A stretch of 64,000 nucleotides of DNA, from NCBI GenBank assembly GCA_030144725.1, contig JASKMD010000025.1, forward strand, positions 6,435,208 through 6,499,207, read 5' to 3'. This DNA is from Haematococcus lacustris (taxonomy: Eukaryota > Chlorophyta > Chlorophyceae > Chlamydomonadales > Haematococcaceae). Position 1 is the first letter of the stretch. Every line of letters starts with the position of its first letter. Position numbers and translations under genes: made by a program. The notes beneath the pieces are model-generated. The model had not been told where the DNA came from. It ran no database searches and worked only from the letters and a program-made list of their open reading frames with translations. Positions 4,473 through 59,787 of this stretch are shown here, piece after piece.

Positions 4473-4520
4473 GTGTGACGGTCACACGCCCACCCCTTGC
4501 CCACCCCACCCCTCCCCTAT

Positions 4521-4828
4521 CCCACCCCACCCCACCCCACCCCACCCCACCCCACCCCACCCCACCCCACCCCACCCCACCCCACCCCACCCCACCCCAC
4601 CCCACCCCACCCCACCCCACCCCACCCCACCCCACCCCACCCCACCCCACCCCACCCCACCCCACCCCACCCCACCCCACCCCACCCCACCCCACCCCAC
4701 CCCACCCCACCCCACCCCACCCCACCCCACCCCACCCCACCCCACCCCACCCCACCCCACCCCACCCCACCCCACCCCACCCCACCCCACCCCACCCCAC
4801 CCCACCCCACCCCACCCCACCCCACCCC
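4521..4828. repeat. (CCCCA)n array
   Basis: About 61 near-perfect CCCCA pentamers. All six frames stay open through it, which produces long but meaningless Pro/His/Thr or Gly/Val/Trp ORFs. Confidence 0.97.
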
Positions 4829-4836
4829 AGCAAACG

Positions 4837-6666: not shown

Positions 6667-9600
6667 CTACCCTCCCTCCCTCTTAGCAGCCCTGAGTCTG
6701 TAGCTTGTCTTTGCAATGGAGTGGGCTGTCTCCACCGCGTGTCTTGTTAACTTGTGTAATAGTTTAGTGGTGTTATCTTGTGAGACCCCCAAGGCCAGGA
6801 GGTGTTGCCGTGTGTGTGCTTCGTACGTTATGCCACCGATGCCAAGGAGGATAGGTCTAATCTCCACCATGTGGCCTTCCTTGCGTATGGTTTGAGCTAG
6901 ATTGGTGTGTTGGTTGAGTGCCTTGTCTAATTGATCCGTCCACCTTGAGTCCGAGCAGTATTTGATTTCTATGATGGTGACCCGTTTGATGGCTTTGCCA
7001 CGTTTGCCCGTCTTCGTTGGTGGCATTACCATGAGAATGTCTGGTCTGGTGGTGTTTTTGGTTGCTGTTGTCTTCAGTCCGAGTGCTCGTAGTGTTGTGT
7101 GTAGTGTGTCGTTAGGGAGGTCGAGGTCTTCTTTTGCGCCCTTCTCCCAGCTGCCGGTGTCCGCGAAGCTGATGTACCCGCCTAGGGTACCCTTGCTTAT
7201 GGCTTTAGCAATGAGGCGGCCGGCCCCGTTATGCCTTTCTTGCACCATCGGTAGTGTCTCGCTGCAGCCCGAGAGGAGGTGTGTGGCACTGTCGGCTTCC
7301 CCGCAGAGTGGGCACCGGTCGTCGGTCGCCCGTTTCCAACGCATGGCCAGCTTTTGGTTATAGAGCCCGCCGGTACGGTAGAGTAGGGCAGTGCGTTGCG
7401 CGGGTGTGGAGATGTTCGTGTCGGCCATCACCCTTTCACCAGCTCCTTTCGCCGCGGCTTTGGTGATCTCCTGGGACATCTGGTAGTAGATACTGTCCTG
7501 ATTGGCGAGACCGAGGCCGTGTTTGCGGTGCATGTGTGCTCGCACGCTTTGGCGGCAATCCGGCAGTGGGGCGGGGGTTTCGCCGTCGGCTTCGTTGTTG
7601 AGCCAGGTGTTGGTCTCTTTCCGTGTGGTAGGGCGGTAGGCCGGGGTGTTGGCAAGCTCTGGGTGTAACGCCGCGTGCTTGGCGAGGGCATCGGCGCCTT
7701 CGTTGCCGATAATTCCCGAGTGGGCCCGTACTTTGTAGAAGTGGATCGTGGCGGGGCTATCGATGATGAGGGTGGCGATAGCGGTCAGGATGTCATTGTG
7801 CCTGTGTGTGATGAGCGACATCGGGTTAGCGAGGGCTCGGCGTATCTGGTAGATAGAGCAGAGGCTGTCGGTGGCGATGCGTGTGGCCCCTGCTTTAAGT
7901 GCCGCGTGTATCGCCGTGAGTTCCGCCTTGTTGATGGTGTTGCTTTCCGGGTCGTCCAGGGCGACGGTGATGAGGACGTTGGTCTCCGGGATATAGACCC
8001 CCGCCCCGACGCTCGCTGGGGCTGCCTCCGAGGTCTTAATGCAGCTGCCGTCCGAGTACGCGAGCGTGGCCCATTCGGTGATGGCCATCCGTGGTTGCGT
8101 CGTGGAGTGTTGCGTGAGCTGTTGGTGGCTGCGTTGGTGCCCCGAGGTGGGGAGGTCCCTGTCCAACGGCAGGCGCATATGTTGTTTGTGACCGCTAGGG
8201 GGTGTGGCTGGCTGGCTTTGATTCGTTGGTTTGTTGCGGATTGGGTGTGTGTCTCGTTGGGGGTGGAGGGCAGTGGCGGTGCTGGCCAGCCATCCTTGGG
8301 GGTTGCCTTTGGTGACGAGTTGTTGTCCTGCTTCATTCCAGATGATGTAGATGTGGAGGTTGGCGTGCTTGCCTGGCTTGGGGCAGGTGGTCTTGGTGGG
8401 GGGTATGCTGGCCAGGTGCTGGCAGTATTCTGGGTAGCGTCTTAGGGTGTCCATGTGTTTGGGGTAGGAGATGCCCTTTTTCCCAGGTATCAGCATGATG
8501 GTGGCCATAGCCTCCTCCTGGGTAGCTGAGTGTATAGCATGGTTGACGCATTTGAGTGCCACCGCATCGTCTGCCGGTACGTTCCATGTGGATAGCCCAG
8601 TGTGGCGTACCAGTAGGCAATTGTGGTGTGCACCGAAGGCCGTGTCATTGGTGTCAGGGCTCCAGTAGGTAGTGGTTTCCGGTCTAACTGTGAGTGGATC
8701 AGCCCACCTTTGGACGGTACTTGGAAAGCTGCGTGTGGTGTGTAGAGTGGCTAGGGCTTTGTCTTGTGCCGCTCTCATGGGGTGGTGGTTGCTCTGTGTG
8801 TCATGTCTCCTTAGGAGGGCCACCAACTCTGTGGCTAGGTTGCGTGTGTGTTGTGGTGTGTGTTGTAACCACGCGTGTAGGTGTTGGTGTTGATGTTTAG
8901 TCAGAAGACCTACTGTGCGACCCGACTCGTCGTGAGCCGTTACATGTTGCACTAGGTCGTGCTTGGGCATGTTGGGCTCCCCCGTGTTGAAGCTCATCGC
9001 GGGAGTGGTCATGTGGGGGTGTAGTTGCAGAAAGGTTTCGCATTTGCCCGTTCCAACGATGTCCGTCTGCGGGTTGATGGGGTACGTGTGGAAGGTGGCC
9101 TTCGAGTGCAGGTTGGTGCACCGGGGTAGCCAGGTGTGCGGGTCCGGTAATCCTTGCCGGGTGTGGTCCGGCAGGTTCGCGTCAGGCCTCGCATGTCTTT
9201 CCTCTTGTATCGTCCTGTTTTCCTCGTCGTAGATGTTGCGCTTTGCCATGTAGTCCAGGTGTGCCGTGATGAGCGGCGCCGGTTCGAGAGTGGGGTGCCA
9301 GTGTACTCGTATGAGGTCCGAGTGCGCTGACTGACGCATGGTCGTCTTGAAGTCATTGCTGCCAAACTTGCATATGGGGCACAACCAGTAGCCTGGTTCC
9401 TTGTGTCCTGACAGGAGGGTTTGCTCGAGGCAGGCTGGGTGGTAGGCCCTCTTGCAGTTGTGGCACGTGGGGCAGTCGCCTCTTGGTAGCCAGCACAGCT
9501 CACAAGTGCATACATCTTTAGCCTCATCCCTACTGATGGTCTCTATGTGTGTGGGTGTGTAGCCTTCTTTTGCACATAGGTGTAGTGCCCACCGTTCTAT

Positions 9601-12600
9601 GACTGTAGGTTTCCAGTGCACCTTGTAGTAGCTTTCCTTATTGATGCCGTCCCATTGCCAACCGTCTATGTTTGTGATGACCTCCTGGTGGTCGTACATG
9701 GCCCCTAGTATGTGTCCTAGGTCCGTGAGCTTGCACCGGCAGGCTTTGTCCACCTTCCAGCTTGAGAGCCCCGGGAGGTCAAGGCCTGGTATGCGCACGA
9801 TGTCAGCCGGGATTGTGTGGACATGTCTGCCATCCTTAGTCCGTTTTGTACCCGCCTTAAGCCGGGTGGGCTGCGTTGGGTTCGAGGGTGCTGCTCGTTG
9901 CTCACGTTGTAGCAGCCGTGAGCTCGACTTAATGGCCGCTTGGGCTGCGGGTGCCGTTGCTGCCCGCTCCGTCGTGTCTGGTTGCGTTGCGCGCATGACC
10001 GCATACGCTTTCATATCCATATAGCGGGTTCTGGTGTCTGGCACGGCGGGTGTGGGCGCAAGTTCCGTGAGGCCCGCGGCCCAGGGTGTGATTTTGCGTT
10101 GGTCGGGCGGTAGGGTGAGTGTTGTGTTGCGGCTGTCCCGGATGGTGCGCGTTGCGGTCGCGTCCGGGCATGAGGGCTGGGCCGCCATGGCCGCAAGTTT
10201 GTTGAGGGCGATAATGTGTTTCTGCTTGACCTTTTTCCCGTATTTCGATGTGAGCATGCTACCCGTGATGATGTGTGTGTTGCCCTCGCAGCTGAGCTCA
10301 CATGCGTGGGTAATGCCTAGGCTTTTGAGGCAGGTGATGCTGGCGCTGACGACGTCGTGTGCATGAGAACTGTTGGCTTGCGTGATGAGGCGGCCGAGTG
10401 TGTGGCATTCCTCGGGGTAGAGGGGTAGTCCCCCTTCCGTGGCTGATAGCCCGGCTAGTGAGGTATAGACTAGTTGCCGTGCCCTGAGGGTATGTTGGAG
10501 GAGGGTGAGCATGCGGTGTCCTTGAGTGTTGGCCTGGGTATTGAGCCACGTGATTTGTTTGTGTAACATGCTCCTTGAGATGTGAGCGTGCGTCACATCT
10601 GTGGACTGGAGGCTTTGTGTGAGGGCTGTTGTGTTGCGAGCGTGGTATTCCTGAGCTGTGGAGCTGATGCCCATGCCTAGTTTCCCGGCGTCTTCTCTGA
10701 CGATGGCGTTGGGCGTTCCCAGGGGGAGTCTGAGTTTAAGCTTAACGCATTGATTAATGGACCTGTCGTATAGCTCAAGGTCCCCTGGGGTGCAGGGCAC
10801 GGCGCAGAAGCTGTAGGCTAGGCTGGGTATGATGGCCGTGCGAATGATGTGTATGGCCTGTCTAGCACTAGCGAAAGAACGTCTGAGTCTCTCTAGTTTT
10901 TGGCGTAGCTGGGTAATCATAGCAGTGTGTTGTGGTTTCCAGTCCAGCGTCATGGTGATGAGCACTCCCAGGTAGGTGAAGGGTGAGGTCGGCCGGTGGT
11001 ATGTGACGGGTTTCCCTTGTAGGCTGACGGTTTGGAGTTGTTGGCGGGCCCGCTTGTCCGCTTCGGCCGCGTTGCTGCACATGCCTGTTTCGACCGAGTG
11101 ATGGAGCGCTGCTGTAGCGAGGGTTTTACTGTGTGAGATGATGAGGTGACCCCAGTCCGAGAAGGCTGAGAGTTTGTCCGCTTGGCAGCGGAGGTTGCGG
11201 AGTGTGTTGCAGAGGATTGCTATGTCGTCGGCATAGTCAATGCTGCTGACGATGGCACGCTCTCCGCTGTCAGCCGTCGCGGATTTGAATTTATAGCCCC
11301 TCGCGCCCACCTGCAGCCAGCGCAGTAGGGGTTCGATATAGATGAGGAACAGGAAGGGTGAGAGCGAGTCTCCCTGGATGGTGCCCCGGTCTACGGGTAC
11401 CGGGTCGGTGGGGCCGTAGGGAGTTCTGAAGCGCGTTGTAGCGCCCGTGTATAGGTCCTTCACTGCGTCCGTCGCGTCCGTGGGGAAGCCTAGGTCGTGC
11501 ATGATCCATAGTAGTTTGTCCTGGCAGGTGGTGTTGAACGCACTAGTGAAGTCGACCAGGAGCGCGTAGATATCTGCCTTAGCCAGCTTAGCATCTTCAA
11601 GGGCCATGACAAGCATCTGTAGCTGTTGTGTAGTGTTCCTATGGGAGCGGAACCCTGCTTGGTTCTTGCTGAGCATCCCATTGGCTTCAGCATACTCAGA
11701 AAGTATCTTAGTTATGAGGCTGGTCCACAGCTTGTAGACGGTGTTGGCTAGGCCCACTGGCCTGTAGGAGTTAAGGTCCGTTTCTTGCCCTTTGTCTTTG
11801 TAGAGCAGGCATGTGTCACTGGTCTTCCACGTGGTTGGTGTGCAGCCTGTAGCCCACATGATGATGAACAGCTGGTGTATGGTGTCCCTCATCTCCCACG
11901 GCAGCATCTTGATGATCTCGTTCTCAATGCCGTCTGGTCCTGGGGCTTTGCCCCCTGACAGCCTACTGACACATTCCTGGAAGCCTGCCTTGTCCATGAT
12001 GGCTGTGTGTAGCCAATGTACGTTTTGGCAGGTGTGCATCGTGAAAGGGTCGTCCGCTTTGGCGCGGGCCCACGGGTAGTTTCGAGTCTGCGTGTTTGTG
12101 TAGTTGCCAGTTTTGGGGGTCGGCGGCGCCAGCTTCGTTCCATAGGCCTCGGTAATTATCCGGTTCAGGTCGGCCGGGGCCGTGTGTATCTTGTTGGTGA
12201 TGGGGTCGGCTAGCGCCTGCAGGCCTTTGTGATCGGTGCGGGACGGGCGTAGGATGTATTTGTTCGCTTTCTTAGGCTGGGTGCTTATTAGTTGTTGCAT
12301 TCTGACCAGGGCTTGGGCGATGGCGAGTGCGGAGTCGTCGTCGTCTAGCTTGTGAATTTGGTCGCGGTACGAGTTGGTCAGCTGGGCGAGCGCGGCCTGC
12401 ACGTGATTTTCGGTTGTATCATCGCCCTGACGCGCTTGCACCGCCTCCCTTGTTTCCGCGTTTGTAGTATCTGTCTCTGGGATGAGTTCATCGATTGTCG
12501 GGTGCACGTTGTTTTGCTTGAAAAACACTCTAGCCTTCCGGTTAAGTTCTCTGGTGGTTTTGAGTTTTTTGCCTAGTGCCTGTCTAATCCTACACATGGT

Positions 12601-15600
12601 CATGCGTTGGTAGTGTTGGCCTCCCCTTGTTAGGGTCTTAGTATTGCAGGTCTTAATAGCTGTCGTCCTGCAGGTTTGCAGTAGGGTTGTGAGCATGGTA
12701 GCTGCGGTGTCTACAACTTCCCTGGCTGGGAGGCCTGCTACCAGCGTTAGGCGCTGTGGTTGTTGGGGGTTGGCCTTGTCGATTGTGGTCAGGAAGTGGA
12801 TAGCATCGGTGTACATGGGAGCGAGGTATGCTGTCAGGTGTGCATGCAGTTGTGGGGCACCTGAGCTGGGTTGTTGCACTGCCAGGCGGTAGGCTTCTCT
12901 GTCCCTATTGGTAATGGGGGTGGTAAGGATGGTGTGGCTGTGCTTCTGAGGCTTTTGTGGGGCTGCCAGGTCTATGCCCAGTCGGGCTGTACTCAGTGTG
13001 GCGGTGAGTGGTCTGTGGTCACTAAGATATGCGCTTGTGTCGACGTGCGTGCGGTGCTCAGGGCCGTGTCTTGCGTCGCGCGTCAGTATGGCGTCGATGC
13101 GGCTGTTGCAGTGCGGTTGTTGGTAGGTCCAGGCCCGGTCGCCGGAGTCAGCTTCGGACAGGCGCATCTCTGTGGCGAACTCCCTCATCATGGTGTCTTG
13201 TGTGTATTCGGTGTGTTCGGAGCGATCCTCTGTTTTCATCGTGGCGTTGACATCTCCCGCCAGGATGAGTGAGCCGGGCAGGTGCCCAGTGGTTGTTCGT
13301 ATATACTCTTGCATCTTCTTCCGTAGTGGGAGCGCGTCGTCGTTGTTCCCGGAGGGCCAGTACGTGGCGACGAGTGTGAGCTCTTCGCTTTGTCGTTGGC
13401 GGAGGCTCAGGATGACGCAGCGGGTGTTTACATCCGCGTCTGTGCACGGCGGCAGCATGGTGGTTTGCATCTGGATAGCTAGGTCGTGTCTGATACCAAT
13501 GAGAACTTCGCTGTGGCCTTGGTGGCGGTGGACAGTGTAGTTGGGCATAACCCTCTTCAGCCAGCCAGAGCTAGGGTTGTTGCTCCTGGGTTGGGTCATG
13601 GTTTCAGTCAGGATCAGGATGTCCGGGCTTTGGCTGTGCACAAGGTTCAGAACTTCGTTTCTAGATCTGTGTAGGCCTCTGACGTTGAAGGTTGTGAGGG
13701 TGATGTGTTGCCGGTTGGGGGTGGGTGGCGGTGGGGGGCTGTGATGTTGGTTCGTACCAAGGTCGATGTCGGGCGTGGATTTAGGTGCCTCGTCTATGGT
13801 GGAGACTGGCCCAGTGTTGTGGGTATTAGCGGTGGGTTTGCAGAGATATTTGAACATGAGGGTTTGAGTGTGTGTGTCGTTACCGTGTCTCTTGGTGACT
13901 CGAACGCGCTTTTTGGAAGCGTCGGTGGCGTTGTCGAGGGGCGTAGTAGGTCGATGAGTACGTGTCGTTGTTTGCGGACGGAGAGTGACCGTGGGTGTGT
14001 CCCGGCGCTGTCGCAGCCGGGTAGGCTCGTCGTGTGGGGGGATGCCCTCTGCTGTCGCCCTGCGCGTGCTATCGGTTGTGCAGCTGGTCTCGGCGGTAGT
14101 GGTGGTCACGTGCAAGGGGCCAGGGGTCTCTCTTGCCTCTGTGTGGTCTGTGGTAAGATCTATCGGGTCCAGGTGATCTCGGAAGTGTGCTGCAAGCGCT
14201 GAAGGGGTGGTGGCCTCCAGTGGGTCCGCTATCCAGATCTCCCTCCTAATGAATCGTGTGTGCCTCACGTCGCCTGTGCAGATAGTGAGGATGTTCCCTT
14301 GAAGGCTGCTCCAGTCGTTAGGTGTAGAGAGTGGTTTAGGCACCCGGTTGAATGAGTCCAGTTGGTGCCAACCATGTGGTGTGTGCTTGATGGCAGTAGC
14401 GTGTTGGTGTGATAGTAGGATGACAGCCTCAGTGTGTGTTGCGCCGGTGCTTGTTATAGCGTTAGTGATCGTCTCAGGGGTGATACTCTGGGTGGGTAGG
14501 TAGGTTGAGGCTGGATGCAGGTACATGTGCATCTCATGGTGTTTGCGGTGAAGATAGTGATTCAGTGTGTCCGATGAGAACTTGCCTCTCGCATGGTAGA
14601 TATGGTCGGTTTTGAGGGTTTGGATTGTGTGCCCTGCGGCTCGTGCTTCTTGTGCTAAGTGTTGTAGGTGCTCGGCTAGCTGCTTGCAGTGGCTGATGAC
14701 TGCGTGGTAGTCAATACATTTTTTTCCCATGGCCATGTTGAAAGCATGTACTAGGCAACATTCGTCGTATTGCCTTTCCATGTAGCTGGGGTCTAGGTTA
14801 CGGGCCGTTACTGTGGAGTGAGCGGGGTCGACTGCTGTGGCGTTGTGACCGTGTCCTGTTTGTTCTACATGGCTGATGATGTGATGGATGTCCTTTTCAG
14901 CGCACATGCGCATCTGTTCCCGTGAGCGGGTGTTGGGCGTGATGACAAAGAGTTGATGCATAGTTTGCATAGTCGCAATAGGGATGTGAGAGAGGGGCGT
15001 CGGTGTTGTTTCCATGGAGTCCAGTAGGTTCCATGCGCCGTCGATGCACTTCATGGCCATGCTATGGCCTGGCTTTTTGCACAAAAATGTGTGTGTACCG
15101 TATTGGCCGGCGAGGTTTCCCAGGTTGTCAGCAGACCAGTCACTGGGTTGGTTGAGTTGGGCAATGCTCTGAACTGCTAGGCCGTAGTGGATACGTAAGT
15201 ACATCTCAATGACTTCGTCGGAATAGCCGTCAACACCTCTTGCCATTAACCATGCGCCGCGCTCAAACTGATCAGTAAACTGAAGGAGCCTGTTCTCGTG
15301 AAATATGTCTATGTCTTGCATGGTGACCCATTCATGTCCCGCTGCATTATTCAAGGAATAAACCTGGCACGCGGAGCTATGTCTGGCCTGCATGTAGTGC
15401 TCGTTGGTTGGGCCGGGGTTCGCTTCGACATCCCCAGCGGCTAGCAGTAGCCAGGCCATGTAAACGAGGGCAATAGTGGAGTAAACTGTGGTGATGTCGA
15501 TTAGCCATTGTGTAGCCGTAGCCAGCAAGCAAGAGGGTAGCATGGTATTGTGCACACCCTGCTTGCTAGTGATGCCTATCCTATAAATAGTGTAGCGATG

Positions 15601-17379
15601 CAACGTTGTGTTGTAGTGGTGGACGATAAGGGAGGCCCTTGGCCCACTATGGGTAAAGTGTCCATGTGTAGTCCAATTGTCCATGCACACAGAGAGACAA
15701 AGTAGAGCGTTGTGCCGTGGGGCGCTGCCATCCAGGTATGGGCAGAGGGGGAGGGCTGTTACAACAATGACACCCTTCCACCTACGCACTCTCTTGATAT
15801 GTTTGAGCAAGCACGCCTTGGACTGGGAGGGGGTGGTAACCTGGGTGCGTTGGGGAGGGGTACAAAGATGGAGCCCGAGCATGCTAAAGAGAGCTATGGT
15901 AATGTGAATGAGATATGCCTTGCCCCCCACCACTTTGTTTATATCTAGAGGCAACACGTCAACATATAGATCATGTATGGGTGGTCCATGGGGTATCAGT
16001 CTGCCATGTAGCTGCTCACATGGCTGCTCATCCTTCACTCCATTGGTGTGGGCATGGGGGTACTTGGAGCGGGGCGGCATGCCAGCGTGTGGTGCATACA
16101 CAGCTGGTCCTGGCAGCATGCTGGGCTGTGCACACAGCTGCTCATCCTCCGACTCTTTGGTGTTGGCATGGGGGTACCTGGTGCATGGCAGCGGGTCAGC
16201 ATGTGGTGTACACTTGGCTGGTCCTGGCAGCGTGCTGAGCTGATCACAAGGCTGCTCATCCTCTGGGTTGTTGGTGTGGGCATAGGGGTACCTGGTGCAG
16301 GGCAGCAGGCCAGCATGTGGTGCAAGCGTGGCTGGTCCTGGCCGCTTGCTGGGCTGTTCACCCGGCTGCGCATCCTCCGGCTCACTGTTGTGGGCGTGTG
16401 GGTACCTGGTGTGGGGCAGCAGGCCAGCATGTGGTGCATACATGTCTGGTCCTGGAAACGTGCTGGGCTGTTCGCACGGCTGCATATCCTCAAGCTCGTT
16501 GGTGTGGGCGTGTGGGTACCTGGTGCGGGGCAGCAGGCCAGCATGTGCAGGTCTGTGCTGCATTTCAGGTGCGTTGAGATGTACCTCTGGAGTGTGTTCT
16601 GAGTGTGGAGGTAGGGGCCTGCATGGTGTAAGGACCAGGGGCAGTGAGGTGTTGCATGCCCAGCCGGTGTTGGCCCGGACCATGCGTCTCCAAATGGTGA
16701 TGACTTTCGTTTGTCTCAGCTGGGACCTCCAAGGTTGGCAAGCCCCTAGCTGTCTCTGGATAGTTTGTGATGATTTCCATCCTTCACCAAGTTGTTTATT
16801 CTCCGAGTTGTCTCCGAGTTGTGTCTCCGAGTTGTGTCTCCGAGTTATGGTCTCCGAGTTGTGGTCTCCGAGTTGTGTCTCCGAGTTGTGTCTCCGAGTT
16901 GTGGTCTCCGAGTTGTGGTCTCCGAGTTGTGGTCTCCGAATTGTGGTCTCCGAGTTGTGTCTCCGAGTTGTGGTCTCCGAGTTCTCTTCAAGTAATGACT
17001 CCGAATGTTTCTCCGAGTTATCTCCAAAGGGTGTCTCCGATTGTTTCTCCGAGTGCACACCCTTGCTGAGGCTCATTGTGCCCTTCAGCTTACAACAGTC
17101 AGGCATGCAAGTCCTGGCAGGCTGACATGTAGAGAGGCAGTGTCGAACATGAAACCTCTCGTATTCAACGCGATAGGTTGGGCTGGAGCTGCTCATTAGC
17201 GATGAGTGTGCCTGCGTCCTTCGTGACCCCAGGCCAAGGCAGCGATAGTTCAGCTGCAGGGCGATCAGGACCAACGCTATGCACAGGCACATGTATGTTT
17301 TACGAGGCTTACTCGGCACTGCGGGTTTGCAGTGGCTGGCCGCGGCGAGCGTCCAGGGTGTCCAAGTGGCGGTCCACAT
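6667..17379 (-). CDS. Giant LINE polyprotein: 2A, Josephin-like x2, APE, RT, PHD, RNase H, RLE
   Basis: 3,570 codons, intact from ATG at 17379. Order by residue: hydrophobic N-terminal segment ([11 protein letters not shown], near 35); Thr/Arg/Glu-rich minisatellite-coded tract (about 110-195); five 38-residue repeats with the core [11 protein letters not shown] (about 270-450); two hydrophobic segments; 2A motif GDVEANPGP (D650-P657); Josephin-like module 1 (C671, H772, D787) and module 2 (C875, H993, D1008); Thr-rich linker with QTLMFKYL (Q1172); APE endonuclease (FNVRGL at 1231, LTET, GDVNA, SRIDAIL, SDHRPL); RT with GKAPGPDG and YADD (2049); PHD finger C4HC3 (about 2618-2670); RNase H (SDGS D3110, then E, D and the GNEGADALA block); CCHC finger from C3356; RLE with RPD (3447) and EIK (3471). 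It should copy and integrate the element's RNA. 2A would release the N-terminal repeat protein. The protease assignment rests on motif spacing, not on a search. Confidence 0.93.
15409..15432 (-). other. 2A ribosome-skipping motif, LINE copy 1
   Basis: Codes for DVEANPGP within [14 protein letters not shown]. This fits the 2A/CHYSEL consensus D-(V/I)-E-x-N-P-G-P, in which the Gly-Pro bond is not formed. It follows a hydrophobic, probably membrane-spanning stretch, and the first Josephin-like Cys is only 14 residues after the Pro. LINE copy 2 keeps the motif as DIEENPGP. Confidence 0.88.
16045..16575 (-). repeat. 38-residue coding repeat, LINE copy 1
   Basis: About five in-frame units of 114 bp. 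Each codes for a variant of [16 protein letters not shown] followed by an acidic/Gln/Pro part (EDEQPCEQPS) and a Pro-Gly part. The same unit is expanded to about twenty copies in LINE copy 2. Confidence 0.85.
16796..17060 (-). repeat. Coding minisatellite TCTCCGAGTTGTG
   Basis: About 20 units of 12-15 bp with the core TCTCCGAGTTGTG (plus strand) near the 5' end of the LINE ORF. Read on the minus strand they give Asn-Ser-Glu-Thr-Thr-Arg-Arg-type repeats. Units vary by 1-2 bases, but the frame stays open. Confidence 0.85.
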
Positions 17380-17486
17380 ATCTCACGGCGTCAAATAACG
17401 AGCTGGTTTCAATGCTGTTCACTGTTCTCGCGATGGATGCGTGCGTGTTCCAGAAAACTTCGTCGGTTTTCGCAAACCGAAAAAGT

Positions 17487-30990: not shown

Positions 30991-31351
30991 TGGCTACGGG
31001 TACTGGCAGCCTTTGAACCCTAATGCGACACCCAGCATCATGCCGGCTCATACCCTTGCCGCTCCCTGGATACCCCAATGCACCATGGATTGATCCACAA
31101 GCAGCGCAACGCCTAGATGATTTCCAAGCCCACCAAGCAGCTGGCAATCCTCTGAAGATGAAGCTTTTGGCAGCTGCTGCCGCTATTTAGGGTTACTATA
31201 ATTACATGGTTCGCGGGCTGTAGAGCGCCGGCAAGTTAAAGTTTTACCGGCCGACATTGCTTGTAATTGCTGTGCTTGCTGTAATTGCCCGATTCTGTTC
31301 AACATTAACGTATAAATCACCAATTACGACAATATAACAATAAATTATTCT
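30991..31351. other. 3' part of the TIR element
   Basis: Short plus-strand coding-like stretches in two frames (GYGYWQPLNPNATPS; NAPWIDPQAAQRLDDFQAHQ), suggesting a frameshift or a missed splice. After them comes an AT-rich, TGTAATT-containing segment up to the right terminal repeat. Confidence 0.4.
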
Positions 31352-31369
31352 CCCGTAATGTATAGGGAT

Positions 31370-32518
31370 CTATGAATCTAGGCAGCAACTTCTTAGCCTT
31401 ACCTGGCTTCATCCTGAGGTTCCTAGTGCTAAGAAGCACCAACTGACCAGTGTGGTACTCCACTTCCTTGCGTCCCTTGTTGGCCATATAGGCCTGCCGC
31501 CGCTGAGCCAGTTCCATAAAGTGGCGAGCCTGCTTGACATTGCTCTGCCACCACTCAGACAGTCTCCTGGCAGTGGGACAGTACACCTCGCCCGGCAGCT
31601 CCAGCAGGGCAGGTGTCAGAGGTGACTGGCCAGTATTGACCAAAAAGGGCGTGGACTGTATGGACTCCTGCCAACTATTGTTGACAGCAAACTCAGCCAG
31701 AGATAGGAAGAAAGGCCAGTCAGACTGAGCAGGTGAGATATAATGGCGAAGCATTTCCTCTAGGGTGCGATTGTACCTCTCAGTCTGGCCATCGGACTGT
31801 GGATGATAGGCACTAGACTTACATTCCTTTACACCAAGAATGGTCATAATTGACGCCCAGAAATGATTAGTAAAATGGGAGCCCCTATCAGAGATGATTT
31901 CTCTGGGTACTCCATGGTGTTTAAACACATTGTCAATGAAGAGACGGGCGAAGCTCTCAGCATTCATAGACTCACGGCAAGGCACAAAGTGCACCATTTT
32001 AGATAGCCTGTCTACAAACACGGCAATGGCATCAAAGCCATGCTCACCAGGAGGTAGCTTAGTAATTAGGTCCATTGAAATAGACTCCCATCTATCATAG
32101 GGTATGGCCAGAGGCGTGAGCAATCCTCCAGGTTTGGTATTAACAGATTTGTTACGCTGGCAAGCATCACAGTTGGCCACATAATGGCGTACCTCAGACC
32201 TCATGCGGGGCCACCAGAACATCCTGGAGATACGCTCCAGCGTCTTGGTAATACCCACATGACCTGCAAACTGCGCATCATGCATCTCCACCAATATCCT
32301 GGCTTTGAGCTCTGGGCAGTTAGGGACCACTATCTGGTTCCTTTCTCTGGTGCGATACAGCCCATGCTGATCCTGATCATACTGATCCACCATGCTGGCA
32401 AAAGCCTCATCTGCTGCATACGCTGCCAGCAGCTGCTCTGCCATATTGACAGCATGCAGAGGGTGCAAAGGCACAGGGGGTGGGGGCAAAGGCTGCTCCA
32501 GCACCAGCTGTGGCTGCG
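31370..32518 (-). pseudogene. Gypsy copy D pol, integrase part
   Basis: Open frame with the integrase zinc finger (HDAQFAGHVGITKTLER, CDACQRNKS) and the DDE core (SMDLITKLP, ISDRGSHFTNHFW, AYHPQSDGQTERYNRTLEEML), ending at KKLLPRF. Beyond that, the hairpin MITE and TIR element cut it from its chromodomain (28624-28964). On the other side it stops at 32518, where the LTR of gypsy copy C begins; its RT is not seen and would lie beyond the 38.7-kb gap if it survives. Protein identity to copy C is moderate, so it is a related but separate family. Confidence 0.92.
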
Positions 32519-32755
32519 TGTAGCGTTCCGATTCTGCACTAAGCAGTCGGCCGCTAGTGTCACTGACGAAGTGTGATACAGGCAGGTTAAATGGTGGGCT
32601 GTATTGCCTGCCCACCATTCGGGTTCGATCCCCGGGGGCCGTTCTATGTCCTGGCCTGGTTACGCTGAGACAGTCTGACACCTGTAACGGCTATTAGCGT
32701 TGCATGGCGCTCACACGTTGAAAAGATTTAAGGCGCGCTCTTCCTGAACGCTACA
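32519..32755 (+). repeat. Gypsy copy C 5' LTR (237 bp)
   Basis: TGTAGCGTTCCG ... GAACGCTACA with inverted 7-bp ends TGTAGCG/CGCTACA. The 3' partner starts at 38671 with the same first 67 bp. It contains the hairpin TGGTGGGC...GCCCACCA and the T-arm-like CGGGTTCGATCCCCG (32620-32634). It was inserted into gypsy D. Confidence 0.93.
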
Positions 32756-32791
32756 TTGGTTTCCGCATCGATAACTCTCAACGCCGCTATC

Positions 32792-34327
32792 ATGACTGAC
32801 GGTACTCCCGCTGGGGAGACTCCTGGCGCCGGCACATCCACCGACCCAGAAAACTTCAGAGGTCTGCTTGCTCTAGCTCGCACTGACGCCGATTTCCGCA
32901 GAGACCTTATGGCAGCTCTCAACCCTGCGGGTACTTCTGCTAACCCTTCCCGTCCTGGCACTGGCCCACTGGACGATGAGCTTCTCAATGACGAGGAGGA
33001 GGCTGAGGACGAAGACGCCCAGCAAGACGAAGATGAGGAAGAAGAGGACGAGGCTGAGCAGCTTCGCGAGGAACTGGCGGCTACCAGAATGGAGCTGAAC
33101 TCGCTGCGCATACGCCAGAGGAACTTGGACCGCGCCATGTCTTCCTTGGCTGCTCAGGTGAGCCTAGTTCCTGGTAGATCGTCTTCCTATCAGGACAGGC
33201 TGTTTGGAATGCGCACGCCCTCCCCAAGCAGGTCTGGTACACGTCCAGCGTGTATTCCTGGCACTTATCTGTCTGCTGGTGGACGAGGTGGCGCTTTGCA
33301 CCACCTCCTGTCCCCTGCTCCTACTTCTGTTCCGGCTGCCAAGGCTGTGCCTGGCCCAGACAAGTGGACAGATGCCTGCATCAAATCAGTCCGCAGGGCT
33401 TCGGCCTTCTGCGATGACTTGGAGGCCCACTGTGCTCGCTATTCTTTGGACATTGTCTCTGTCTTCCCTGCTTTCCTATCTGGTGCAGCACGCAATGCTT
33501 GGTACCCTTCGGTCCAGCAAGCTCATTTTGCGCAGACAGGTGTTGCCCCTCCCTGGCAGTTCTTGCGTGCGTCTTTCCTTGAGTATACAGGGGATGATTT
33601 GCGGGATGACATGCTTGAGGCTCGCGACAGACTGCTCGACAGGTCGATCCGTATGGGTCCCAGTTATCCTGAACTCACTGACTATCTCATTGCGTTTAGG
33701 AACAACCTGTTAACTGTTGGTGCGCAGTGCATGGACGAGTCCCTCCTGGTCAATCTGTTTGTTACTGGGTTGTCTCCCAGTCTGCGTGAGACTGTCCTGA
33801 AGGACATTGTCCCCTTGCAGAACCCGACATTGACCCAGGCAATTGATTCTGCCAGGCAGGCACAGCGTAATGCTGTGTTCCTGGCCGGTGCAGTCAATCC
33901 CAAGCGCCATGTGGCTGCTGTGCAGGGCCGTGCCATCACTGAGCGCGCAGAGCATGAGATACACGAGACAAAGATGACGGTGCCTGCTCCTGCTCGCCAA
34001 GCATCTGCCCCCCGCTCTGTTGGCCGTCAAGTGCCCAGGATGGGAGGCATGCGGCCAGGGCCTCCCCCTGCTGCTACTGGCAAGAGAGCTGGTGCTGCTG
34101 CTGCTGCCACGGCTGTAAAGCCTGGCCAGTATTGCCACCACTGCTACTCCCCTGATCATTTGAAGCCCCAGTGTCCCTGGAAGCACCTCCCTGCCAAGCA
34201 GGCCCGTGAACAGTCAGGCTACTCTAGGCCACCTGCTGGGGCCAATGTGCCTCAGAAGCGCAGCCGCCCAGATGATGATGATAAGGGGCAGGGCAAGGGC
34301 AAGCTGGCCACTGCTAATGCCAAATAG
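32792..34327 (+). CDS. gag: Gypsy copy C Gag
   Basis: 511 residues from the ATG at 32792, 37 bp after the LTR, starting MTDGTPAGETPGAG as in copy A. Layout as in copy A: acidic stretch (EEEAEDEDAQQDEDEEEE), coiled coil (LREELAATRMELNSLRIRQ), capsid-type region (FLSGAARNAWYPSV, FLEYTGDDLRDDM), Ala/Pro-rich linker, one CCHC knuckle CHHCYSPDHLKPQC, basic tail. Ends at TAG with pol following in the same frame. Intact. Confidence 0.92.
   Translation: MTDGTPAGETPGAGTSTDPENFRGLLALARTDADFRRDLMAALNPAGTSANPSRPGTGPLDDELLNDEEEAEDEDAQQDEDEEEEDEAEQLREELAATRMELNSLRIRQRNLDRAMSSLAAQVSLVPGRSSSYQDRLFGMRTPSPSRSGTRPACIPGTYLSAGGRGGALHHLLSPAPTSVPAAKAVPGPDKWTDACIKSVRRASAFCDDLEAHCARYSLDIVSVFPAFLSGAARNAWYPSVQQAHFAQTGVAPPWQFLRASFLEYTGDDLRDDMLEARDRLLDRSIRMGPSYPELTDYLIAFRNNLLTVGAQCMDESLLVNLFVTGLSPSLRETVLKDIVPLQNPTLTQAIDSARQAQRNAVFLAGAVNPKRHVAAVQGRAITERAEHEIHETKMTVPAPARQASAPRSVGRQVPRMGGMRPGPPPAATGKRAGAAAAATAVKPGQYCHHCYSPDHLKPQCPWKHLPAKQAREQSGYSRPPAGANVPQKRSRPDDDDKGQGKGKLATANAK
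34325..34327 (+). promoter_or_regulatory. gag/pol in-frame stop (TAG), candidate readthrough site
   Basis: TAG followed by GGTGTTGCCCAGCCAGG. Copy A has TGA with the same 17 downstream bases. Pol is open in the same frame for about 290 codons after this stop. Confidence 0.6.
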
Positions 34328-37300
34328 GGTGTTGCCCAGCCAGGCAGGTGCTGTTCCTGTGCTGCGGTAGCAACAACTGCTGAGCCTGATCAACTGTCTG
34401 CTGCATGCAACTGTGCTAATGTTGCCTGCACAAAGCCTGAGACGCAGACTGATGCACTCTGTGTTTCATTGCCTGCCAACAACAAACCAAGGCCACAGGG
34501 TCCTGCCATGAGTGCTGTGGACAACTGCAAGTGTGCTGTGCCTGTGTCTGAGTCAAAGCCTGAGAAGACTGCCGTGCTGGCAGCTAGCTTTGCTGGTTTC
34601 TGTTGTGAGGCTGCTGACCCATGCCTGAGTCATGTGGTATCATGTAAGACAGCCCTTTGTTGCCCCATGCTGCCGTCCCAAGTCATCCTGGGGGTTGCTG
34701 GACAAGACAACAAGGTAAGGTTCCAGTTTACTGGCACCATCGATAGCCATGTCTGCCATATGTTAGCTGATGGTGGTGCTGACGCGTCATTCATTAGTGC
34801 TAGCTATGTTCAGCTGCATGGTATTCCTCTCTATACCTATCCTGTGTCACTTAGGTTTGATGTTGCTAACAATCAACCTGTGATCTGTGAGCACTATGTC
34901 AAGGTACAGTTGCACATTGCCAGCTTTAGCTGCATGTGCCTGCTGACTGTCATGCCTGACCTTGTTCATGCTTATGACGTGCTCCTGGGTGCTGACTGGC
35001 TGTCTGTGCAGGGGGCCTTGATCGACTACGTCGACCAGACCCTGACCCTGCGCACTGCCCAAGGTAACACAACCTTGCATCCACACACAGGTGACATGAG
35101 TGCTGCTGGCCAGTGTGTTGCCAACAGGCCACCTGGGTCCACCCACTCACTGCCCCGCCCACCTGCTGCTGTACTTGCTGCTGTGTCCAAAGCCAACCCA
35201 AAGGCCTTGTGACAGCTAAGCAAGCAGCCAGATGGTTGCGTAAAGGGGGCTCTGCTATGGTTGCTATGGTGTCTTTGGAAGACCTTACCTTGCCAGCAGA
35301 TGTTTCACCTGTCCATAGACAGCACCTCCAAGCTCTGCTTGATGAATACTCTGATGTATTCGAACCCATCACTGGACTCCCACCAGAGCGTGCAGTAGGG
35401 CACTCCATCCCCTTGCAGCCTGATGCTAAGCCTCCAGCTAGGCCCAGCTATAGGATGTCCAAACCTGAGCATGATGAACTGCGTAGACAGATCACTGATC
35501 TCCTTGCCAAAGGCATGATAGAGCCCAGCTCCTCTCCCTTTGCTGCACCAGTGCTGTTTGTCCAGAAGAAATCAGGTGAGCTGCGCATGTGCATTGATTA
35601 CCGCCAGCTCAATAAAATTACAATCAGGGACCAGTATCCTTTGCCACGCATTGATGATCTGTTTGATCAGCTCGCAGGAAAAACTGTGTTCTCCTCCCTT
35701 GACTTGCAGGCTGGTTACCACCAGATCCGCATCCCGGCTGAGGATGTCCCTAAAACTGCGTTCAGGACACCTGAAGGACACTACCAATTCAAGGTACTGT
35801 GTTTTGGCCTGACAAATGCTCCTGCCACGTTCCAGCGTGTAATGAATGAAGCATTTGCTGAGGTGATAAATGACTGTGCCCTCGTGTATCTCGATGATAT
35901 CCTGGTGATGTCCGAGAACACTGAGCAGCACCTAGTCCACCTCAGACGTGTATTTGACTTACTGCGTAAGAATAAATTCTATGCTAAGTTATCTAAATGT
36001 GAGTTTATGAAACGCACACTGATGTTCCTGGGCCATATCATAAGTGCTCAGGGTATATCTGTCGACCCTTGTAAAGTTACTGCCATCTCTAACTGGCCTG
36101 TCCCTACAAGCCTCAAAACCCTGCAGTCTTTCCTGGGCGCTGCTAATTATGTCCGTAAATTCGTACATAATTTTAGCACCATTGCTGCACCCCTCACTAA
36201 CCTGACTGGCCCCAAGAAGGACTCGTTCCCTTGGAAAGCATGGCCTCAGGCTGAGTTGGATGCATTCAATGCCTTGAAGCAGGCCATTTCTAATGTGCCT
36301 ATGCTCAAGCTTCCTGATCACAGCAAACCCTTCCAGGTGCACTGCGATGCGTCCCTTGAGGGCATCGGTGCAGTCCTGATGCAGGATGGCTACCCGTTGG
36401 CGTATTACTCCAGGAAATTAATCCCTGCTGAGGTTAATTACACCACGGGCGAACAGGAACTGCTGGCATTGGTATCTGCGTGTCAACAGTGGAGGTGTTA
36501 CCTGGAAGGGGTACCATTCACTCTGTACACAGATCACCGGCCACTCATCTCTCTGCCCACTCAAAACATACTCTCACGCAGGCAGACTAGATGGATGGAA
36601 TTCCTGGCCCGCTTCTCATATACCATTGAGTATTTACCTGGTATATCTAATCCCGCTGATCCGTTGTCACGCATTCCAGCTGCCACAGTACAGACGTGTA
36701 AAGGCCCTGGTGCTGATAATGTGAAGAGTATCCTTGTCATGACTAGGAGTAAGCGGCGTTCTCAGGAGGGGGAGGAAACTGGTGCTGAGGCACGTAAAAC
36801 GAGTGCTGGTGATGCCGCTGCGCCACCCACACAACCACCACCAGGCCAAGGTGATGGTGCTGCTGTAAAGCCACCCACCAAACGTGTCACTTGGGCTGCT
36901 GATGTACCAGCAGATGGAGAACCCAGTGCACCCAAACCACCAGGTCCCTTGTCAAACCTGCATGAGTGGTTGGTCAGAGCCTATGCTGCTGATTCCAACT
37001 TCACCAAGCGTAGGAAGACTAAGAACTACTACCTGGATGATAATGGCCTATGGAGACATAACAAACGACGCACCGTCATTGTGCCCCGTGACAAACAGCT
37101 ACGAGAGCATATCCTGCATGAGATGCACGATGCTAAGTATGCTGGCCACGTTGGGATCACTAAGACGTTGGAGCATGTCATGCGTGTGTTCTGGTGGAAA
37201 CACTTACGCACTGATGTGCGTCACTATGTAACAACATGTGATGCATGCCAGAGAAACAAGTCGGTTACAGCTAAGCCATGGGGGTTCCTTCACCCTCTGT

Positions 37301-44713: not shown

Positions 44714-45472
44714 GGGCTGTACTGCTCGGCTGCTGCGGGCTGGGGCTGGGGCTGGAACCTGGGGCGGTGCTGCTGCGTCGAAGACTGGGTTGTCCGTGGA
44801 GCTGTACGGTCCGTTAAGCTCCAACGGTGTGCCCAGTACAGGCGGCTGAGTAATGGCAGCCACCTCGCGCAAGCACGAATGCGGATGTAAGCGCTAATGC
44901 ACTGGGCGAACGTGTTGAAGAAACACGCACCGCAGAGCTACGGTTGGCTGCAGCCTGAACACCCCGGAGTGCCCAGGACTGCAGCCGAAGTGAAGATGCT
45001 GACGCCCAGACGTCCGTCTGTCGACAGCTGAAGGCAATTGATAACCTTCCTCCGGGGAAAAGAGCTTAGAAGAAATGTAAGATAGCAAACGGAATGAGTA
45101 AGGACGCCTCGACTAGCAGCAAGCAAGGCAAAGCTGATACCCGTCACCAGGATGGTGCCGGCCTTCAGATGCCGATGGCAGTGAGCTGAGAATACCTCCA
45201 GACTTGGGTGCCCGTGATTACATCGGACAGCTGGTAAGGTCTTCTAAGCTGCCGCCGCAGCATCCCAATCCACTACAAATACCCAAACCCCCATGCAACC
45301 ATGTCAGAACTGTTATGCAAGTCGCAGGATACACACACAAACCCACCCACAGTAGCCAGGTCACATCAACCATCATACACCAATCACCATCTACCGTGAT
45401 ACCACCAACTGTCATGCTTGCATGGCTAGCCCATGTCACGCATTCCGTACAGTCACGCTCATGGATGTGACA

Positions 45473-54100: not shown

Positions 54101-56693
54101 GGATGGCAGTGGCCCTGCAGGTTTCCAGGAGTGTTGTGAGCATGGTAGCTGCGGTGTCGACAACTTCCCTGGCTGGGTGGCCTGTAACTTTTGATAGGCG
54201 TTGTGGCTGATGTGGGTTGGTCTTGTCTAGTGTGGTCAGGAAGCGGGTGGCTTCTGTGTACATTGGTGCCAGGTAAGCTGTTAGTTGAGCATGGAGCTGT
54301 GGGGCACCTGAACTGGGTTGTTGCACGGCAAGGCGGTAGGCTTCCCTGTCCTTGTTGGTGATGGGGGTGGTGAGGATAGTGTGGTTGTGCTTGTGAGGTT
54401 TTTGTGGGTCTGCCAGGACTATGCCCAATCGGGCTGTACTCAGTGTGGCTGTGACTGGCCTGTGGTCACTGAGATACGCGTGTGTCTTGACGTGCGTGCG
54501 GTGCTCGGGGCCGTGTCTTGCATCACGCGTCAGGATGGCATCGATGCGGCTGTTACAGTGCGGCTGTTGGTAGGTCCAGGCCCGGTCATCGGGATCGGCT
54601 TCAAGCAGGCGCATTTCTGTGGCGAAGTCCCTCATCATGAGGTCCTGGGTGTAGTCTGTGTGTTCGGAGCGGTCAGCTGTTCTCAGCGTGGCGTTGATGT
54701 CTCCCGCTAAGATGAGTGATCCGGGTAGGTGACTCGTGGCTGTTCGTATGTGCTGTTGCATTTTCTCTCGTAGTGAGAGCGCGTCGCCGTTATTCCCCGA
54801 TGGCCAGTACGTGGCGATGATCGTGAGTTGTTCGCACTGGTGTTGGTTGAGGGTCAGGATGACGCATCGTGCGTTTACCTCTGCATCCGTGCACGGCGGG
54901 AGCATCTTGGTTTGCATTTGGATGGCTAGGTTGTGTTTGATGCCTATCAGCACTTCACTGTGGCCGCTGTGTCGGTGTGTCATGTAGTCTGGCATGACTC
55001 TCTTCAGCCATCCAGAGTCTGGATTGTTGCTCCTAGGCTGGGTCATGGTTTCGGTGAGGATCAGGATGTCCGGGCTGTGCTTGTGCACGAGGTTGAGGAC
55101 GTCGTTCCTGGACCTGTGGAGGCTTCTGACGTTCAGGGTAGTAAGGGTGATGTGTTGACGGTTGTGTGTTGGGTGTGGCTGCCTTCTTGGCAGGGTTCTG
55201 TGTTGTGGTTGTGCTCCTAGGTTCTCAGATGGGGTATCTGTGGGTATGGCGTCGGGGGGTGGGGTGGAGTCTGTCTTTAGGTAACGGTACATCAGGGTCT
55301 GCGTGTGCGAGTCCTTAGGTTGTGCCCTTGATTTGTTCCGTCGTTGAGTTGTGCTACTGGTGTGGCCTGTTGATGTGGGCCGTTTGTACTTGCGTGTCTT
55401 AGCTTGAAGTGTGACTGTGGGGGCGGCTTGTCGCAGCTGCGGCCGGACGTGCTGGTCCGGCGGGTGGGTGTCACCATTAGTTGTGGCGGTGCGCGTGTTA
55501 CTTGTTGGTTGTTGTGCAGTGTCTGCCGTATTTGTCGGCCGGTCTCTTCCGGGGCTATGCGCGGGTTGGGTGTCCCAGTCGTGACTGGTGAGGTCTATGT
55601 GGGCCGCTCGTAGATGGTGTTCCAGCTGCTCCGTTGTGGCGTGCCTTGTGGGGTCTGCTAACCAGCATAGTGGTTGGATGAGGTTTGTATTGGCTGCGTC
55701 GCCCTTTTTGATTTGAACGAGTGTGCCCTGCAGCTGGAGCCAGTCTTCCGGGGTGTCCAGTCGATATGGGTGGCCGCGTTCAGAGTCCAGCCATTGCCAG
55801 GCGCGGTCTGTGCGGCGGATGGTGGTAGCATGGTTGTTGGTGATGAGAATGGCAGCTGTGCTGGTGTAGCTGTCTATATTGCCAGTGAGCGTGGTGAGAA
55901 GCTCAGGTGTGATGTTGCCGAGTGTAAGCTCGGTGGCGATAGGGCATAGGTGGAGGTCTTTGTGGTAGTGGTACAAGTAGTGGTTCATGGTGGAGACTGT
56001 AAAGTTGCCGGATTCTTCGTATATGTGTGGGAGGCTGCTACGCAGTGGTATCGGCCTGCCCTCTTGCCTTGCTTGGTTGGCTAGGTTTTGGATGTGTGTA
56101 CCTAGCGTTTTACAGTGGGTGATCACATCATCGGGCCTAATCATAGGTTTCCCCATGGCCATGTTGATGGCGTGTGCAAGGCAGCACTTCTTGTACTGCT
56201 TTTCCCAGTAGGGCCTATGTGCTTCTTGTGGGTTGCCTATGATGGGCCCAAGCCTTGCCCTCTGCCTTGCCTCCTCCATCTCCGCCGTGTAGTCTGAGGC
56301 GCTAATGATTGCTTGTATCTCACAGGTGACGGGGTACGCGTAGTGTCTCGTGTTCCGTAGCCGGATAGGGGCGTCCGCTTGGGAGTCGAGGAGGTACCAG
56401 GCGCCGTTGTGCTTCCTTACCGCCATACTGTGAGCCGGGGCCTTGCATAAAAAGGCATTCGTGCCATGTGTAACGGACAGCGCGTCGAGGTTGCAGATGG
56501 ACCAGTCCCTCCGTGTGCGCAGGTGCGCCACCGTGTGTGTGCTGAGGCCGTAGTGTGACATTAGGTAGAGGTTAATGACCGTGTCATTGCATGCGCCTTG
56601 CTCGTCTCTGGCTAAGGCCCACATAGTGCGTTGGTCCCCGCGTCGCGCGTGTAGTTCGGACGTGTGGAAGTTGGCCAGTTCCTGGTTAGTGAG
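48108..56693 (-). pseudogene. LINE copy 2 polyprotein, downstream part (Josephin-like 2 to RLE)
   Basis: In frame with the upstream part; the first ATG after the TGA is at 56624 (2,838 codons). Contents: remainder of Josephin-like module 1 (PAHSMAVRKHNGAWYLLDS), module 2 (CCLAHAINMAMGK, NHATTIRRTDRAWQWLDS), linker with QTLMYRYL (55278-55301), APE (LNVRSLHRSRND, GDINAT, SRIDAIL, SDHRPV), RT with YADD, PHD finger (CELCWEPIGDSPMCNSC), RNase H ([23 protein letters not shown]), CCHC ([17 protein letters not shown]) and RLE (RPDIIMI, LEIKYCADSRW). The RT and flanks (about 52.74-53.70 kb) are almost identical to copy 1, while the ends are much more divergent. It could still make APE-RT-RLE from the internal ATG, but not the whole polyprotein. 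Confidence 0.9.
55278..55301 (-). other. PCNA-box-like motif, LINE copy 2
   Basis: Codes for QTLMYRYL, matching copy 1 QTLMFKYL (13843-13866). The surrounding linker is otherwise poorly conserved. The layout Q-x-x-M-x-x-Y-L resembles a PIP box. Confidence 0.45.
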
Positions 56694-56696
56694 TCA
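56694..56696 (-). other. Nonsense codon in LINE copy 2
   Basis: TGA where copy 1 has TGG (Trp, in AAGHEW). A single G-to-A change separates the 2A/Cys region from the rest of Josephin-like module 1. Confidence 0.85.
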
Positions 56697-56771
56697 CGAG
56701 TGTCCTGCCGCCATGTTCAGGGCATGTATTTGGCAGTGTGAGGCTACCTGTTGCTCGAAGTGTAAGCCATC

Positions 56772-56795
56772 AGGGCCTGGGTTCTCCTCAATGTC
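56772..56795 (-). other. 2A ribosome-skipping motif, LINE copy 2
   Basis: DIEENPGP within LLLAAGDIEENPGP, conserved with copy 1 although the flanking residues have changed. Confidence 0.88.
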
Positions 56796-57444
56796 TCCCG
56801 CTGCCAGCAGGAGCCAGCTAATGTATATGCATCTTGCCATGTATTTACTTATAGCCATGTTCCATGTGGGGTTGCTAATGATGTTAGGGTTGAGGTAGTA
56901 CGTCATGTATGCTTGGAGTGTAGTGTTGTACTGTATGGCCCTGATAGTCCTTCCACTATTGTGACCCTTGAGGTAGGTGCAGGTAGTGTGTGTCAAGCGG
57001 GTGATGGTTGTCGCACTTTGTAAAGACCCGTCTATGCCAAGTAACCAGTTGTAGGTGGTGGTGTGTAGGGAGGCGTTGAGCTTGGCTATGGTCTTACGTT
57101 GTTTCTTGAGACATTGTTTAGATTTGGCGTGTGTGTATGTGGGTTCGTTTCGTTTCCTGCTTATCATTATCCAAGTAAGAAAGCACACCAGGTAGGCTAT
57201 GGTTTGCCGGTCCATGTCATTTTGCTGGGTGGGTTTCCAGTGGGGGTGTCCAAATGGGGGGTTTGGCATGGGGGTAATGATGGTGTACTGTGGGTCCATG
57301 TTGTCACTGTAGGTGAACAGGCATGGCACTTCTGTAATGTTCGTCTCAGGTACCATGCACTGGCCAATGGTGTGAGCCCCAGGCATGTACCCATCATGTT
57401 GGGGTTGTTGGTTGGCTTTGGGCATAGCAGTCAGGACTGGCAGG

Positions 57445-59700: not shown

Positions 59701-59787
59701 AGCCAGTTGCTGCTCCTTGTGGTGTAGCACTGGGCACAGGTGTGGTCGTTAGGCACAGTCTCCCTCAGGCTAGTGCACGGACCTCTG

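Follow-up and report, generated by a model that had tools for sequence, protein, structure and literature searches.

Predicted tandem Josephin-type cysteine peptidase modules behind a 2A site in a Dualen-type LINE of Haematococcus lacustris

Josephin modules at the locus

The 64,000-nucleotide stretch of the Haematococcus lacustris genome analyzed here (hereafter the window; assembly GCA_030144725.1, contig JASKMD010000025.1, positions 6,435,208 to 6,499,207) carries two minus-strand copies of a long interspersed nuclear element (LINE) of the Dualen type. Directly after a 2A ribosome-skipping site, its polyprotein contains two tandem modules that are predicted to be Josephin family cysteine peptidases. 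A first-pass annotation had read two sets of Cys, His and Asp motifs as Josephin-like, and all of the motifs that it named are present in the minus-strand open reading frame (ORF) 6667-17382, our residue numbers being one higher. The features concerned are as follows, in window coordinates.

6667..17382, minus strand: polyprotein ORF of LINE copy 1 (P0001), 3571 codons counted between stops
15409..15450, minus strand: 2A ribosome-skipping site of copy 1, residues 645-658
14929..15408, minus strand: Josephin module 1 of copy 1, residues 659-818
15367-15369 (C672), 15064-15066 (H773) and 15019-15021 (D788), minus strand: catalytic codons of module 1, copy 1
14269..14793, minus strand: Josephin module 2 of copy 1, residues 864-1038, by Pfam PF02099 and predicted fold
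14770-14772 (Q871), 14755-14757 (C876), 14401-14403 (H994) and 14356-14358 (D1009), minus strand: key codons of module 2, copy 1
56772..56813, minus strand: 2A site of copy 2, LLLAAGDIEENPGP
56295..56771, minus strand: Josephin module 1 of copy 2, with a stop codon inside at 56694-56696
55698..56219, minus strand: Josephin module 2 of copy 2, frame open, all four key residues present

The Cys-to-His distances of 101 (module 1) and 118 (module 2), the His-to-Asp distance of 15 in both modules, and the Gln five residues before the Cys of module 2 (Q871/C876) agree with the earlier description. LINE copy 2, at 48108-60533, has the layout of copy 1, and part of its sequence close to the 5' end is masked. 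It had been said to keep both sets of residues. This holds for the catalytic letters, all of which are kept, but module 1 of copy 2 is interrupted by the stop at 56694-56696, between the Cys and the His.

Identity of the modules

When whole proteins were compared with Pfam PF02099 (Josephin; curated cut-off 26 bits), copy 1 matched with an E value of 5.9e-11 (42.9 bits) and copy 2 with 5.8e-13 (49.4 bits), and module 2 taken alone scored 38.8-40.1 bits, over the cut-off. AlphaFold models of modules 1 and 2 had predicted local distance difference test (pLDDT) values of 91 and 88, and Josephins were the only Foldseek matches of both models at E ≤ 0.001. The modules share 12-22% identity with solved Josephins. 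Single-sequence searches of the PDB returned only the signal recognition particle receptor for module 1 (E 0.034) and JOSD2 as the best match for module 2 (E 0.12), and a profile was needed; one built from the Josephin modules of such elements retrieved JOSD2 and ataxin-3 in the PDB. A chance match of motifs was considered and was ruled out by Pfam, the PDB profile search and the fold. The first-pass annotation had tied its Josephin-type reading to a papain-like core and to conservation of Cys, His and Asp across related elements. The reading is upheld on both counts, as the predicted folds of both modules are Josephin and the triad is conserved on profile comparison. Sequence and modeled structure together identify both modules as predicted Josephin family cysteine peptidases (clan CA, MEROPS family C86; PF02099). 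When cellular Josephins of small size were sought, 467 candidates came up, none of which reached E ≤ 0.001.

Conservation and selection among genomic copies

The search of the 308-Mb assembly yielded 799 Josephin candidates, of which 150 were scored, and all 150 contained a Josephin over the Pfam cut-off. Forty loci were taken for comparison. They were chosen by hand from the Pfam matches listed, mostly with long open frames, so that module 2 was selected for and module 1 was not. Together with the two window copies they made 42 copies, 35 of which had both modules and were retained for the counts; P0037 was left out of the first alignment. The C, H and D of module 1 and the Q, C, H and D of module 2 were invariant in 35/35 two-module copies, in which 77 of the 353 well-filled columns (22%) were invariant overall. 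The His-to-Asp distance was 15 in all 35 copies for each module, and the Cys-to-His distance was 101-102 in module 1 and 115-118 in module 2. Window copy 2 was the only one of the 35 with a stop inside the two-module stretch. The Gln of module 2 stood at -5 in 35/35 copies. Of the 34 module 1 rows caught by the search pattern, 25 had it at -7 and 9 had it at -5.

For genomic pairs with a synonymous divergence (dS) of 0.1-0.8, the median ratio of nonsynonymous to synonymous divergence (dN/dS) was 0.12 for module 1 (189 pairs), 0.17 for module 2 (188 pairs) and 0.21 for the short linker (178 pairs). These results show from sequence comparison that both modules are under purifying selection. An estimate from the two window copies alone, with module 1 saturated and module 2 at 0.25, was replaced by this one.

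Link between the 2A site and module 1

In the window copies, the D(V/I)ExNPGP motif occurs in frame as DVEANPGP and DIEENPGP, consistent with 2A sites. The genome-wide count covered the DVEANPGP spelling, which is encoded at 354 sites; the reversed pattern gave 0. Twenty-eight of the 2A sites were sampled, comprising 8 loci on one contig and 20 picked by hand at intervals with the flank unseen. Module 1 followed the 2A site in 27/28 by profile, and the remaining one (L055) was recognized by eye as a remnant. Module 2 was also present at 23/28, with frame changes on the way in five of these 23 two-module sites (L051, L059, L061, L062 and L076). In 26 of 33 copies measured, the Cys of module 1 lay 13 or 14 residues past the 2A proline, and in the other 7 it lay 25 or 36 residues past it. 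Skipping at the 2A site would thus put the nucleophile near the new N-terminus. In ataxin-3, the catalytic Cys14 is likewise close to the N-terminus.

Outside Haematococcus, P0127 has GIEPNPGP followed directly by a Josephin. In P0093, two 2A sites occur in succession within residues 632-890, the first leading to a Josephin stub and the second to a whole Josephin, as if the 2A-Josephin unit had been duplicated as a block. NPGP was not found in most of the outside Josephin-bearing proteins, so the 2A link is a trait of some lineages only.

Josephins and other peptidases in related elements

Relatives were found with the reverse transcriptase (RT) part alone as the query, so Josephin was not selected for. 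Among the best 120 of 173 proteins, 50 were from outside Haematococcus, with RT identities of 43-55%. Twenty-eight of these 50 reached at least 150 residues before the APE-type endonuclease (APE; apurinic/apyrimidinic) and were counted as testable, 14 without an APE match and 8 with fewer than 150 residues being left out. A Josephin preceded APE in 23/28, five of them having two, and in three of the 23 (P0100, P0110 and P0126) it was partial only. The Josephin profile used here was trained on these relatives in rounds; independent support came from a precomputed Pfam PF02099 entry in 7 of the 50 outside rows. Six proteins were first scored as lacking a Josephin (P0084, P0090, P0099, P0105, P0110 and P0131), and unfiltered re-scoring revealed a truncated one in P0110. 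Among the 25 full outside modules, Q was kept in 24, C in 25, H in 25 and D in 22. Across elements, 39 full modules kept C in 39, H in 39 and D in 36.

Two of the proteins lacking Josephin carry another type of peptidase. P0099 has a Ulp1-type peptidase (E 1.3e-22) about 400-490 residues past two NPGP sites. In P0131, OTU was matched weakly, at an E value of 0.0038 that falls short of the cut-off; this match has a DGNCNF motif and lies about 120 residues past a 2A site. The Ulp1-type and the probable OTU-type peptidases both sit between 2A and APE, the place that Josephin takes in the others.

A tree was built from 39 modules, the 3 partial ones of 42 being excluded. The Haematococcus first modules joined the first modules of P0091, P0107 and P0125 (support 99/95), suggesting that the tandem arrangement is probably older than the divergence of these elements. 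In P0127, the two modules grouped together (99/93), which on the tree is a separate duplication. Ten of the 36 inner branches are open. From the sequences compared, the tandem Josephin pair is likely to be old.

Mosaic 5' ends

Nine proteins were each paired with copy 1 and compared by identity in blocks of 150 residues. In P0002, P0030, P0035, P0024 and P0059, the Josephin part was 30-53% identical to copy 1, whereas the part from APE to RT was 72-98% identical. P0013 and P0010 showed little contrast (64-94% versus 77-99%), and the outside proteins P0107 and P0091 had low identity throughout. The 3' half was low again for some pairs. Between the two window copies, dS reached 2.2 in module 2 and 1.6 in RNase H, against 0.48-0.68 in the part from APE to RT. 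Over the stretch concerned (6697-15408; in copy 2, 48108-56771), several LINE families differ from one another far more in the Josephin-bearing 5' part than in the body from APE to RT. Because the divergence extends to synonymous sites, it looks less like the work of fast protein evolution alone than like parts swapped between LINE families.

Proposed function and alternatives

The active-site residues are kept in the copies compared, so the modules probably serve the element in the protection or processing of its proteins. We favor, with some confidence, the reading that the modules are isopeptidases for ubiquitin or a ubiquitin-like protein (Ubl) that protect the element's own proteins. Membership of the Josephin family, the Asp as in JOSD2, and the occurrence of Ulp1 and OTU peptidases before APE in two other elements all argue for ubiquitin or Ubl removal. 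Translation would pause at the 2A site and the upstream protein would be released; the remaining polyprotein would start with Pro, with the nucleophile of its first enzyme at about residue 15. The Josephin modules might then strip host ubiquitin or Ubl, mainly in cis, from the translation product or ribonucleoprotein of the element, and this removal would let the large polyprotein escape proteasomal degradation. Labor may be divided between the two divergent modules, for example between chain trimming and base removal. The Josephins might also cleave the polyprotein, but the reading does not require this.

The main rival is self-processing, in which the Josephins would free APE, RT, RNase H and restriction-like endonuclease (RLE) as separate pieces of the 2900-residue product, as viral papain-like proteases do. 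The polyprotein is indeed very long and holds many enzymes, its cysteine peptidases are N-terminal and adjoin the 2A site, and a Ulp1-type protease stands at the N-terminus of NeSL and one Utopia LINE (PMC4640811). However, known Josephins are generally ubiquitin enzymes, and of the LxGG-type patterns tested, LxGG-like sites were absent at the module borders, the two [LIV]xGG matches of copy 1 lying at 484 and 1808. TRGG occurs between APE and RT in P0001, P0002, P0024 and P0083, but the pattern had no match there in the outside relatives, and its sole outside match, in P0113, falls within a Josephin module. We consider self-processing unlikely.

The modules might instead act in trans on a host ubiquitin pathway, for example on histone H2A/H2B ubiquitin at the insertion site or on ubiquitin-dependent silencing, with a PHD finger leading the modules to chromatin. 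A PHD-like finger is part of the same polyprotein and of most of the seven relatives scanned, and the strong divergence of the Josephin region relative to the APE-RT body between several families would fit a host-facing part. On the other side, the synonymous sites of this region have diverged as well, a sign of swapped parts and not of rapid change in the protein, and no host target is known. Action in trans therefore seems improbable to us. It is very improbable that the modules are dead Josephin folds kept as scaffolds binding ubiquitin or RNA-protein complexes, because, although the Gln is displaced in most module 1 copies and D is replaced by E or Q in 3/25 full outside modules, the triads are kept (C and H in 39/39 and D in 36/39 full modules; C, H and D in 35/35 two-module genomic copies).

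Several observations weigh against the favored reading of the element. Module 1 of copy 1 alone scored 14.6 bits against PF02099 (E 0.031), under the cut-off, so that its membership follows from the fold, the family tree and the relatives, Pfam alone being weak here. This module lacks a Gln at -5 and has one at -7. The dN/dS medians come from pairs that are not independent, and the linker value is only a little above that of module 2. On a Pfam and profile scan, P0084, P0090 and P0105 (3 of the 28 testable) had neither a Josephin nor another recognizable protease. The tree, whose root is arbitrary, has long branches, including the first module of P0107 and the second modules of P0091 and P0125, and its second modules form no single supported group. 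The PDB entries of two bacterial Josephins call them clippases, so this fold does not by itself imply deubiquitination of the classical kind.

A broader proposal, which we put forward tentatively on the sequence comparisons, is that Dualen elements have a deubiquitinase slot. An old, specialized Josephin pair, freed by 2A, exchanged between families and replaceable by Ulp1 or OTU, would possibly counter ubiquitin-dependent host control of the RT polyprotein.

Relation to known systems

The Dualen/RandI LINEs of green algae resemble the window element in combining APE, RT, RNase H and RLE within a single polyprotein. Dualen was reportedly defined in 2005 by Kojima and Fujiwara, in a paper whose abstract is said to name a cysteine protease among the domains. 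The suggestion that such proteases had not been described for Dualen-type LINEs stands only in part, a cysteine protease being reported for Dualen already. No publication assigning a Josephin domain to a LINE or other retrotransposon was found in the literature searched, of which the coverage was partial; nor were Josephin identity, the tandem pair, the preceding 2A or the swap to Ulp1/OTU found there for Dualen/RandI. Dualen is reported for relatives of Chlamydomonas (PMC8226300). Among papers that deal with retrotransposons, the term 'josephin' was absent from the main text of PMC5718144, PMC6431247, PMC5408684 and PMC7643828, and in PMC2861651 and PMC12632851 it was Josephine, the name of a place or of an author. 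In the accessible text of a 2023 survey of papain-like peptidases (PMC10318531), Josephin is mentioned five times and no word begins with 'transpos'. A wheat gene named Josephin family protein carries a short interspersed nuclear element insertion (PMC5787218).

Ubiquitin-family peptidases in mobile elements are of a kind already known. NeSL and Utopia LINEs similarly have a ubiquitin-family cysteine peptidase at the N-terminus of the polyprotein, but it is a single domain of the Ulp1-like fold family in RLE-only LINEs (PMC4640811). Helentrons are also mobile elements with a deubiquitinase-type peptidase; unlike the window element, they are DNA transposons with OTU, not Josephin (PMC6431247). 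The Josephin pair refines this picture.

The modules resemble the Josephin deubiquitinases ataxin-3 and JOSD1/JOSD2 in the Q-x4-C-x2-HA-x-N motif of module 2, in the His and N/D 15 residues apart and in the predicted fold, and the third catalytic residue of JOSD2 is an Asp that aligns with the Asp of the modules. In contrast to ataxin-3 and the JOSD proteins, the LINE modules form a tandem pair in a retrotransposon polyprotein, are predicted to be released by 2A, and have the low identity to solved Josephins given above. The bacterial Josephins PaJOS and BpJOS (clippases) and PcJOS (PDB 9g7g, 9f5t and 9fn4) share the fold, PaJOS and BpJOS also matching the modules weakly in sequence, but they are single proteins outside any retroelement.

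Control of retrotransposons by ubiquitin has been studied mostly from the host side, and ubiquitin-type peptidases borne by the element allow it to be tested from the element side. A single genome has Josephin modules at no fewer than 150 loci, and several lineages of the element carry them. If one slot were filled by unrelated ubiquitin-family peptidases in more elements, the purpose of the slot would be revealed, and if the deubiquitinase-slot proposal is true, Dualen elements would be, to our knowledge, the first LINEs for which a dependence on deubiquitination is shown. Studies of Josephin structure and function could also draw on such distant relatives of ataxin-3 and JOSD. In the database rows consulted, 'hypothetical protein' is the only name given to the Haematococcus copies, and this naming bears on annotation.

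Architecture of the element and other features of the window

In copy 1, the upstream protein with its repeats is followed by 2A, Josephin 1, Josephin 2, APE, RT, a PHD-like finger, a PCIF1-like region, RNase H, and a CCHC knuckle with an RPD..E.K motif. The remaining features of copy 1 are listed below.

16011..16547, minus strand: tandem repeats of 38 residues (114-bp period) in the upstream protein, assigned to no family
12997..13707, minus strand: APE-type endonuclease, residues 1226-1462, Pfam PF03372
10963..11775, minus strand: reverse transcriptase, residues 1870-2140, Pfam PF00078
9370..9504, minus strand: PHD-like zinc finger, residues 2627-2671, Pfam score under the cut-off
8437..8901, minus strand: PCIF1-like region, residues 2828-2982, own profile of five relatives, E 2.6e-18
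7669..8067, minus strand: RNase H, residues 3106-3238, Pfam PF00075
6697..7512, minus strand: C-terminal CCHC zinc knuckle and RPD..E.K restriction-like endonuclease (RLE) motif, residues 3291-3562

The window element is assigned to the Dualen type on its predicted APE, RT and RNase H (by Pfam) and its RLE (by our own profile and the motif), and we take APE, RLE and RNase H together to be the Dualen layout. The RLE profile matched 47 of 52 proteins, and a loose PD..E.K pattern caught 32 of 48 aligned rows; CCHC and the PD..E.K motif were found by pattern in both window copies. No curated RLE model matched the RLE region of the window element, and an NCBIfam scan of the element gave no match over the cut-off. 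APE plus RLE in one LINE has been described (PMC4640811).

The PCIF1-like region is common to Dualen-type elements and lies between the PHD finger and RNase H in most relatives. Pfam PF12237 was matched in relatives such as P0105 (E 3e-13) and not in the window copies, both of which matched the five-relative profile (E 2.6e-18 and 3e-17). The NPPF-type motif was not found in P0105, nor at the right place in the window, making a methyltransferase role of this region doubtful.

The 114-bp tandem repeats (38-residue units) upstream of 2A amount to 4.7 units in copy 1 (16011-16547) and 15.6 units in copy 2 (57720-59608), and copy 1 has an extra 14-bp repeat at 16800-17054. A perfect (GGGGCT)136 array at 47136-47954 directly follows the copy 2 ORF on its 3' side, and a (CCCAC)66 array with 98% matches lies at 4500-4829. 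More long open frames, of 457, 531, 294, 1096 and 1365 codons, occur in the window at 31317-38385 and 40796-44893.
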